A DNA stretch of 64,000 nucleotides from Collinsella aerofaciens (GTDB lineage Bacteria > Actinomycetota > Coriobacteriia > Coriobacteriales > Coriobacteriaceae): contig NZ_JADMOP010000001.1 in assembly GCF_015558785.1 (NCBI RefSeq), positions 1-64,000 on the forward strand, in the 5' to 3' direction. Shown here piece by piece: positions 7,462-60,886 of the stretch. A model generated the notes under the pieces. The model was not told where the DNA came from and ran no database searches. It saw only the letters and a list, made by a program, of their open reading frames with translations. Within the stretch, counting starts at the first letter, position 1; every line of letters starts with the position of its first letter. A program made the position numbers and the translations under genes.

Positions 7462-7526
7462 GTTGCGGTGAAATAGGGGCTGTTTAAGGCTACGGCCGGC
7501 AAAAACAGTTCCTATTTCACCGCAGC
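7462..7526. repeat. Dispersed palindrome, copy A (GTTGCGGTG family)
   Basis: Arms 7462-7485 and 7503-7526 pair over 24 bases with three mismatches; the outer part is GTTGCGGTGAAATAGG. A second member with the same outer sequence is at 43640-43704, and both are followed by a similar GACGGA...GGATCA tail. Confidence 0.75.
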
Positions 7527-28722: not shown

Positions 28723-29262
28723 ATGGATTTTGAGAATTCCCAAACCAAGAAGAACCTCGAGACCGCTTTTGCCGGTGAGTCCCAGGCACACACCAAGTAT
28801 CGCTACTATGCATCCAAGGCCAAAAAGGACGGCTACGTTCAGATCTCGAATATTTTTGCCGAGACGGCGGGCAACGAGTCCGAGCACGCCAAGCTGTGGT
28901 TTAAGTATCTGCACGACGGCGCCGTTCCGGGCACTCTGGACAACCTGCGCGACGCCGCTGCGGGCGAGAACTACGAGTGGACCACGATGTACGACGAGTT
29001 CGCCAAGACCGCCGAGGAGGAGGGCTTTGTCGAGATCGCCGAGAAGTTCCGTGGCGTCGCCGCCGTCGAGAAGGCCCACGAGGAGCGCTACAACAAACTC
29101 GTCGAGCGCATCGAGTCGGGCGAGGTGTTTGAGCGTGAGGGCGTGAAGGTGTGGAAGTGCCTGAACTGCGGGCACCTGCACGTTGGTGCCGAGGCGCCTG
29201 AGGTGTGCCCGGTGTGTAACCACCCGAAGGCGTACTTTGAGGAGCAGGTGGTGAACTACTAG
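28723..29262 (+). CDS. rbr: Rubrerythrin
   Basis: A peroxide-reducing protein of anaerobes. The N-terminal four-helix domain binds a di-iron site through ExxH-type ligands ([30 protein letters not shown]), and the C-terminal rubredoxin-like domain has [10 protein letters not shown] and [14 protein letters not shown] at 28723 starts the family-typical sequence; an upstream TTG is rejected. It is 179 aa, a separate transcription unit with its own terminator region. It fits the strictly anaerobic, PFOR-based metabolism. Confidence 0.96.
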
Positions 29263-29283: not shown

Positions 29284-29369
29284 GGGCCGGGAGGGCCGGA
29301 CTACCTTCCCTCCTCGCTCACGGCTTCGCAGGGTCGCGTTGAGGGAAGGTAGTCCGGCCCTCCCGGCCC
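29284..29369. repeat. Palindrome with conserved loop, copy 1
   Basis: Arms 29284-29312 and 29341-29369 are perfect 29-base complements. The loop (29313-29340) contains TCGCTCACGGCTTCGCAG, shared with the palindrome at 30229-30314, whose arms are unrelated in sequence. Confidence 0.88.
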
Positions 29370-29419
29370 GCTTTGGTTCGTTGCGTGCTCGCTACAGAAA
29401 AGCTGATAACTAAGTTTGT

Positions 29420-29449
29420 GTGCCGCCCCTATCGGGGCGGCACGTTTTT
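29420..29449 (+). terminator. Terminator after rubrerythrin
   Basis: GTGCCGCCCC, loop TATC, GGGGCGGCAC, then GTTTTTG. A near-identical hairpin stands at 30357-30386 after the next gene. Confidence 0.88.
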
Positions 29450-29541
29450 GTATGGGGACTGGTTGGGACGGCACCGTTCATGGGTGGGGTACACTGGGTG
29501 GCGACTTTTAGTTTATCTACTACCTGATGGGGTGTTTTTGT

Positions 29542-30174
29542 ATGGGTAAGAAGTCTCGGGCTCGGGTTGCTGCGGCGGGAACTCGCAAGGATCCTGGTCG
29601 TCGGGTTGCCGAGGGTAAAAAGGTCGATCGTGTCGAGAAGGACAAGAAGGTTGGCGCGCATGCTCATCCTGAGTGGGCGCCTCACCTCAATACGGCTAGC
29701 GAGGATCTGACTGCTAAGTTGTTTACTCTGGTCGAGGTTATCTTGGGCGTGGTGCCCGTGGTGGTCATTGGCTTGTTCTTGGCTTCGAAAGATGCCACGA
29801 GTGTCGATAAACTCACCGATGTCTTTTCTCAGGACCCCTCGATGGTGGTTACGTTTATCTCTGCGTGCCTGCAGCCGTTTGTGGCGTACATGTTGTACAT
29901 GATTTATCGCAAATACTGCGAGGGCGACGCTGGTTTTGCCGCCGGCAACCTGATCGGTCTTTTGTGCTCCGAGATCCTACTGCTCAATATCCCAGGCGTC
30001 ATCGGTATGGGCATCTTGCTGTGGCGTGTTTGGCGCAACGTCGCCCCGCACTTTGAGAGCTGGTTGTTTGAGCGTCGTGCAATGGGCGTGCTGGCAGACA
30101 TTGCGGGCTCGCTCGTGATTTTAGCCTTGGCGTTTATGTGCGCCACCGCCGCCCGCGGTCTCGCGGGCATGTAG
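29542..30174 (+). CDS. Hypothetical membrane protein
   Basis: No family is recognised. The first 45 residues are strongly basic (KKSRARVAAAG, RRVAEGKK), followed by four hydrophobic segments (about residues 65-85, 105-130, 140-160 and 180-205), so it is probably an inner-membrane protein with a cytoplasmic basic tail. ATG at 29542 is preferred over ATG at 29527; neither has an ideal ribosome site. The length is 210 aa. It stands alone between two copies of the same palindrome-plus-terminator module. Confidence 0.65.
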   Translation: MGKKSRARVAAAGTRKDPGRRVAEGKKVDRVEKDKKVGAHAHPEWAPHLNTASEDLTAKLFTLVEVILGVVPVVVIGLFLASKDATSVDKLTDVFSQDPSMVVTFISACLQPFVAYMLYMIYRKYCEGDAGFAAGNLIGLLCSEILLLNIPGVIGMGILLWRVWRNVAPHFESWLFERRAMGVLADIAGSLVILALAFMCATAARGLAGM

Positions 30175-30228
30175 TCTGTCCTCACCGACCACGGAGCGCA
30201 GGGCAACTGCTGGTTTCACCGCTCCGGA

Positions 30229-30314
30229 CGTCAGACCCGCGGCGCATCCCTTTCCCTCTCGCTCACGGCTTCGCAGAGTCACGCGAGGCAAAGGCATGTG
30301 CCGCGGGTCTGACG
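30229..30314. repeat. Palindrome with conserved loop, copy 2
   Basis: Arms 30229-30258 and 30285-30314 pair over 30 bases with three mismatches. The loop shares TCGCTCACGGCTTCGCAG with copy 1. It lies 55 bases after the preceding stop codon. Confidence 0.85.
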
Positions 30315-30356
30315 ACGCGGGCTTGCCAACGAGTTTTGGCTAATAGATTGGTTTGT

Positions 30357-30386
30357 GTGCCGCCCCTTTGGGGCGGCACTTTTTGT
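30357..30386 (+). terminator. Terminator after the membrane protein
   Basis: GTGCCGCCCC, loop TTT, GGGGCGGCAC and TTTTTGT: the same stem as at 29420. The rest of the gap to 30637 shows no gene. Confidence 0.88.
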
Positions 30387-43639: not shown

Positions 43640-43704
43640 GTTGCGGTGGAATAGTTCCTGTTTGGGGGCTTGAAGCCTCTATTTGGGAACTAGTCCACCG
43701 CAAC
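43640..43704. repeat. Dispersed palindrome, copy B (GTTGCGGTG family)
   Basis: Arms 43640-43658 and 43686-43704 pair with one mismatch; the outer part GTTGCGGTGGAATAG matches copy A at 7462. A GAGGACGGAGG...GGATCA tail follows as in copy A. Confidence 0.78.
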
Positions 43705-58460: not shown

Positions 58461-58575
58461 GAGCGTGGATTATCGGACACACGAGCGTGGATTTTCGGGC
58501 GTTTACAAATCGAGCGTGGATAATCTCCCACTTTTGGCTTGAAACTAGACTCAAAACGGGAGATTATCCACGCTC
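58461..58575. repeat. GAGCGTGGA repeat element, copy 1
   Basis: GAGCGTGGAT starts at 58461, 58483 and 58512; the third begins an 18-base perfect inverted repeat (58512-58529 with 58558-58575). A T-run follows, so it may end metA transcripts. Copy 2 at 59860 has exactly the same spacing (22, 29 and 63 bases). Confidence 0.88.
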
Positions 58576-59859: not shown

Positions 59860-59974
59860 GAGCGTGGAAAATCAGACGGACGAGCGTGGAAATCTGGACG
59901 CTTGTTGAATGAGCGTGGATAATCTCCCACTTTTGGCTCGTAAGGGGGCCCAAAGTGGGAGATTATCCACGCTC
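59860..59974. repeat. GAGCGTGGA repeat element, copy 2
   Basis: GAGCGTGGA starts at 59860, 59882 and 59911, same order and spacing as copy 1. The inverted repeat here is 25 bases and perfect (59909-59933 with 59952-59976). Confidence 0.88.
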
Positions 59975-60000
59975 ATCTTGCGGGTGCGAAACAGCGGCGA

Positions 60001-60728: not shown

Positions 60729-60886
60729 GCGGCGGTTTGTCTCGATCTGTAACAGTAACTCGGCAAAATTGGACTTAGATGTTACAGATTGAGACAAAGA
60801 GCTGGTGCCGTTCGGGAACGTCTCGATCTGTAACATCTGGAGCCGATATTGCCGTCTAGATGTTACGGATCGAGACAAACCGCCGC
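60729..60886. repeat. Four-part palindrome TCTCGATCTGTAACA
   Basis: Outer arms 60729-60754 and 60861-60886 pair over 26 bases with one mismatch. Each outer arm also pairs with an inner copy (60736-60754 with 60780-60798; 60820-60838 with 60858-60876), so two alternative folds exist. Confidence 0.85.

Follow-up and report, generated by a model that had tools for sequence, protein, structure and literature searches.

Long hairpins that keep one conserved tip while their arms are rewritten lie behind genes in Collinsella and in other families of its order, and these arms are probably rebuilt at the DNA level by fold-back (template-switch) copying round the tip, the palindromes being tolerated in the absence of SbcD. 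Two such hairpins, one 3' of a rubrerythrin gene and one 3' of a membrane-protein gene, are found in the analysed stretch of 64,000 nucleotides from Collinsella aerofaciens (contig NZ_JADMOP010000001.1, positions 1 to 64,000; hereafter the window), and their coordinates are given in Table 1. Both had been picked out, together with a common loop and the same GTGCCGCCCC terminator behind each, in an earlier sequence-only reading of this DNA, and all of these were recovered here, with a gap of about 50 nt between hairpin and terminator in both cases.

The 18-mer TCGCTCACGGCTTCGCAG, which had been taken as the shared loop, occurs at 29314-29331 and 30259-30276. With up to three mismatches allowed, it gave three matches in the window against 0.2 expected by chance, and no hairpins of such length arose in three Markov shuffles of the window. 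The part common to both hairpins is in fact longer than the 18-mer (24-25 nt, TCGCTCACGGCTTCGCAGRGTCRCG) and folds to a short structured tip rather than an open loop. Moreover, while the outer ~20 bp of the arms are unrelated between hairpins 1 and 2, as had been claimed for the arms as a whole, this does not extend to the innermost ~10 bp, where a pyrimidine-rich pattern (CCTTYCCY), together with the purine sequence that pairs with it, is present in both. Hairpin 2, with arms of type C, looks to adjoin a collapsed hairpin of type B at 30192-30227, and an intact type B hairpin is found at the equivalent site in G002, G007, G011, G013, and other genomes. A Pfam search with the 210-residue membrane protein gave no match.

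Table 1. Features of the two hairpin-terminator units in the window.
Feature	Position	Strand	Remarks
Rubrerythrin gene, upstream neighbour of hairpin 1	28723-29262	+	Pfam PF02915, E = 1.2e-31; RUBY_RBDX
Hairpin 1, 5' arm (type A)	29284-29312	+	Pairs with 29341-29369; 29 bp, perfect
Hairpin 1, tip	29313-29340	+	Conserved core CGCTCACGGCTTCGCAGGGTCGCG at 29315-29338; same tip in hairpin 2 and at other loci of the order
Hairpin 1, 3' arm	29341-29369	+	Partner of 29284-29312
Intrinsic terminator, distinct from hairpin 1	29420-29449	+	GTGCCGCCCC TATC GGGGCGGCAC G TTTTT; from sequence and repeat search
Membrane-protein gene (210 aa)	29542-30174	+	Optional in the clade; hairpin-terminator unit on either side
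Probable remnant of an older, collapsed hairpin, 5' arm	30192-30204	+	CGGAGCGCAGGGC, type B
Probable remnant of the older hairpin, 3' arm	30212-30227	+	GGTTTCACCGCTCCGG, compare type B GGTTTCCCCGCCCTGCGCTCCGG
Hairpin 2, 5' arm (type C)	30229-30258	+	Partner 30285-30314
Hairpin 2, tip	30259-30284	+	TCGCTCACGGCTTCGCAGAGTCACGC; sequence shared with hairpin 1 tip
Hairpin 2, 3' arm	30285-30314	+	30 bp stem with 3 mismatches
Intrinsic terminator behind hairpin 2	30357-30384	+	GTGCCGCCCC TTT GGGGCGGCAC TTTTT; from sequence and repeat search

The 18-mer was not found elsewhere in the window's genome. Among 45 Collinsella genomes it has 24 exact copies, all of them after the rubrerythrin or the membrane-protein gene and, in line with the check that the sequence-only reading had proposed, each between its own inverted arms. 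Those looser matches off the locus that were inspected are single sequences without arms. A longer tip pattern, searched against species genomes, was present in Collinsella only, mostly in C. aerofaciens, and outgroup Collinsella have no such hairpin 3' of rubrerythrin. Searches of viral contigs with the tip pattern and of plasmids with the hairpin 1 region gave no match. A gapped pattern (CGCTCAC-N-GTCGCG) tried over the genus as a census was dropped, its matches being mostly non-family sequences.

Across genomes, three arm types (A, B, and C) occupy the two window sites, with types A and B found at the same site in different species. In G006 and G012, the hairpin is a chimera, with a type B outer stem and an inner stem mostly in common with type A (87%), and it is symmetric on both sides. 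Matched single changes are likewise seen in the arms (GGTCTACC/GGTAGACC, GGATTACC/GGTAATCC, and GGATTGCC/GGCAATCC). In the core alignment, 8 of the 17 long-stem pairs show two-sided changes, a number reached by 6 of 500 shuffles; the covariation score was reached by none of 500, and the signal was lost when the partners were slid. The membrane-protein gene is present in some genomes of the C. aerofaciens group and missing from others (G003, G006, G020, G022, G032, G036, and, by its junction, G033), which have one hairpin-terminator unit or a remnant of it, joined to the sequence that elsewhere follows hairpin 2. Recombination between the two hairpin-terminator units would explain this presence and absence.

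A first covariance model, made from the tip and inner stem, matched further hairpins in the same genomes, and the Collinsella loci follow genes for an aconitase-family hydratase, transaldolase, class II fructose-bisphosphate aldolase, the large subunit of carbamoyl-phosphate synthase (carB), and ribose-phosphate diphosphokinase. With a second model, matches were obtained in 42 of 150 genomes of the order and 13 of 77 genera, the genes outside the clade including ftsH, leuC, xerD, and those for formate-tetrahydrofolate ligase, PEP carboxylase, enolase, and an FAD-dependent protein. Altogether, Collinsella and the order's other families have the tip at about 20 classes of gene, and it starts 28-85 nt past the stop codon on the sense strand (30 representatives). 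Exceptions are L361, L370, and L372, which have no same-strand gene end nearby, and the differently placed repeated copies in G145. Antisense matches of model R1 were due to the palindromic stem and are not true antisense copies, and the weak matches L157, L162, L182, L186, L190, and L199 were discarded, being either chance hits or a different sequence. Across loci, 12 of 17 stem pairs show two-sided changes, and 91 hairpins fall into 29 arm clusters. For scale, 400 kb of G002 contain 15 long hairpins, one of them with this tip.

The tip has the architecture GC-UC-A ... apical stem ... U-C-GC and caps a stem of 20-50 bp whose sequence is arbitrary. When the tips of 15 hairpins were aligned, the short asymmetric internal loop (GCTCA / TCGC) was nearly invariant and the stems on either side varied, an apparent invariance that is exaggerated by the recruitment of members with models containing the tip. 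This loop, recurring at so many gene classes, lends support to the earlier suggestion of a recognition site, which we would regard as putative, and the orientation and position of the tip point to a role that is probably played in the transcribed 3' end. Rfam models matched only a tRNA in the window, and for 11 family loci they gave sub-threshold matches only, mostly to generic microRNA hairpins. No description of a family with a constant tip and rewritten arms was found in Rfam or in the literature searched. A conserved gene-end element of common gut bacteria can be named, with the tip as its candidate partner-binding part.

At orthologous loci, coding ends are 91-99% and tips 88-100% identical, whereas most arm pairs are only 53-73% identical, and the arms retain 81-94% self-complementarity per pair over the windows compared. 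For example, ftsH in G094 and G168 shares 99% of the last 90 coding bases and 96% of the tip, with arms at 66% (shuffled mean, 51%) that are still self-complementary. Similar contrasts are seen between rubrerythrin types A and B (coding end 96%, tip 96%, arms 71%) and among the hydratase loci (coding end 94-98%, tip 88-96%, arms 65-73%). As orthologous arms are slightly more alike than shuffled ones, ordinary divergence may account for some of the change. The window arms match only themselves in genome G000, and this lack of a second copy speaks against a donor.

The last 66 coding bases were compared with the sequence 3' of the tip, using pairings with unrelated loci as the control. Here, complementarity was highest for ftsH in G057 (score of 25, with 22 coding nucleotides copied exactly in inverse), followed by the FAD-protein gene (22.5 and 13.5), leuC (18.5), and carB (12 to 15 in three species), each above the locus's maximum with unrelated genes. 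The copies are collinear about the centre and positioned symmetrically about the tip, the one at ftsH with a 13-nt offset. Weaker symmetric matches are found at gltX (G016) and a sulfatase gene, and the rubrerythrin score, just over controls and asymmetric, was left out of the count. Since constraint lies on the coding sequence, the simplest view is that the copy is the downstream side. Where carB of G022 and G004 has changed from CAGCAC to CAGTAC (codon CAC to TAC), the downstream copy is altered likewise, whereas in G019 and G007 it did not follow the codon change. The earlier proposal, that some element had copied the DNA beside it into an inverted repeat, thus receives support at these four genes, though at most loci, including both in the window, no inverted copy of a coding end is visible; there, it is the replacement of the arms that would suggest copying. 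With regard to carB itself, some species (L258, L250, L267, and others) have the same outer arms around an inner stem and tip that are entirely different (AACTGGGCTTCGCGAAGTT), so that the hairpin core can be exchanged. A further family hairpin, with the tip TTCGCTCC..TTGCTTCGCAAAGTCGCTC, is found downstream of carB, where L261 and L269 have it on the minus strand and L267 on the plus strand.

Selection on stem pairing in RNA would be expected to tolerate G.U and not A.C. Among the distinct arm mismatches of the 91 family hairpins, we counted 24 G.U and 24 A.C, although related hairpins of one locus were de-duplicated only by the sequence context of each mismatch and these 48 events are not fully independent. 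Terminator-like hairpins of the genus gave 23 G.U against 7 A.C (p = 0.003), and the arms differ from them in this respect (Fisher p = 0.03). A looser, gapped alignment that reached farther out gave 80 G.U and 68 A.C. Because the excess of G.U is seen in the terminators and not in the arms, the matching of the arms is mostly not a matter of RNA selection.

From these comparisons, fold-back copying is the mechanism that we judge most likely. Once the gene end and the tip have been copied, the nascent strand would fold back at the tip and copy itself, and by this template switch the 3' side would become an inverted copy of the 5' side. Ordinary divergence and indels would alter the 5' side, and the other would be reset when it is copied anew or when paralogous hairpins recombine. 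More tentatively, the tip would owe its conservation to an action in the transcribed 3' UTR, in the protection of mRNA 3' ends or as a protein site, and the arms may provide a stiff stem whose sequence is indifferent. The persistence of long palindromes would be permitted by a missing SbcD, the nuclease that cuts them. A search of six hosts did not find SbcD in five (G000, G002, G057, G094, and G168), and it was found in 13 of 14 control genomes; the hairpin-bearing G145, however, does have it. As expected of long palindromes, the hairpins are sometimes lost, with carB in G027 (L261) having none and rubrerythrin in G022 lacking the tip and most of one arm. The SbcD of G145, the want of inverted coding copies at most loci, and the non-independent mismatches weigh against this explanation, and we call it probable with these in mind. 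That the tip is an active palindrome-making module, serving as a fold-back primer or as the site of a dedicated enzyme and making inverted repeats, time and again, out of the gene end before it, such that arbitrary and always self-matching hairpins are kept as a regular genome feature, seems doubtful to us.

For functional RNA, covariation counts as the best evidence, and its strength here would suit selection at the RNA level only, in which a protein reads the tip in the 3' UTR and the stem stays paired through ordinary compensatory substitutions. Such a reading would also account for the sense orientation at a short distance past the stop codon in some 20 gene classes and for window hairpins that precede separate terminators. 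However, it sits badly with the equal numbers of G.U and A.C in the arms, when the genus terminators do have the excess, and with arms that change blockwise, chimera included; nor are inverted coding copies expected from point compensation. We therefore hold it to be unlikely. What the family presents is strong covariation in which, judging from the G.U and A.C counts and from the coding ends copied in inverse, DNA copying does most of the matching.

Quite unlikely, in our estimate, is the insertion of whole hairpins, with their own arms, behind genes by a mobile palindromic element (REP- or MITE-like). The same tip at many loci, the dispersed palindrome families of the same genome, and the several G145 copies with common arms would fit with it, but the window arms are not repeated anywhere else in G000, close species have different arms between like flanks at the same locus, and some palindromes include coding ends. 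Local gene conversion or recombination among a few paralogous hairpins might instead swap arms without any fold-back copying, as types A and B at one site in different species, the chimera, and the membrane-protein gene that comes and goes with one unit would suggest. Yet this could not create the locus-unique arms or the inverted coding copies at other loci, and as the whole explanation it is very unlikely, though local conversion may act alongside fold-back copying.

The creation and mending of hairpins by template switching has been described (PMC8794818). The family resembles template-switch and quasipalindrome mutations (PMC8794818; in bacteria, PMC7202029) in its inverted copies beside their source, its matched multi-base changes in two arms, and one-event repair of perfect pairing, and in its arm types, chimera, and compensated changes the arms are replaced without wobble intermediates. 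Quasipalindrome mutations are described as sporadic, whereas the events considered here would be tied to one recurrent conserved tip after many genes of the order. Fold-back copying at these loci would provide a natural system in which to watch hairpin template switching, polarised by coding sequence, in bacteria seemingly without SbcD.

Intrinsic terminators are alike in being GC-rich hairpins right behind stop codons, but the family stems are much longer, show no preference for G.U over A.C (24:24 vs 23:7), and, in the window, have no U-tract directly 3' (29370 and 30315 onward). The PBC-28-3 RNA motif adjoins the start codon of the adjacent gene, unlike the family, and is set apart by this description, in which Collinsella and relatives are not mentioned (PMC8632094). 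Collinsella-1 RNA (RF01700; PMC2864571) is, like the family, a candidate RNA from Actinobacteria and the human gut, and its model had no hit reaching the gathering score in the window, nor any at E ≤ 5 in the 11 family loci. With REP/REPIN sequences (PMC3733652), the family has in common extragenic palindromes behind genes and possible roles in mRNA stability. REPs, however, are 20-40 bp long, carry a GTAG or CGTC tag, and occur in many copies whose arms are conserved (PMC3733652), while the family has locus-specific arms, a conserved tip, and few copies per Collinsella genome. Accordingly, neither arms repeated genome-wide (the window arms are unique in G000, and the 91 hairpins form 29 arm clusters) nor a constant tag at the stem base, which differs among types A, B, and C, was found.

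Other repeats were also observed in these genomes. In G145 (L354, L356-L360, L388, and L389), repeated hairpins have common arms and a long tip rich in GCTCAC/TCGCTC. The motif CCGAGGTTCTTCTCGCC, non-palindromic alone, is dispersed as a solo element in G057, G094, and G168 (L374-L393) and forms the inner 5' arm in L364 and L368; a repeated arm that had been considered as further hairpins in genomes of another family proved to be this motif and was rejected. The window itself contains a dispersed palindrome family with conserved arms (GAGCGTGGATAATCTCCC...) at 58512-58575 and 59909-59976, which is also present in G002, and a second one (TGCGGTGAAATAG / GTTGCGGTGGAATAG) at 7464-7524 and 43640-43704, with several copies in 400 kb of G002. 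Lastly, a large imperfect palindrome at 60729-60886, whose arms contain GTCTCGATCTGTAACA, is related to repeats of G002.
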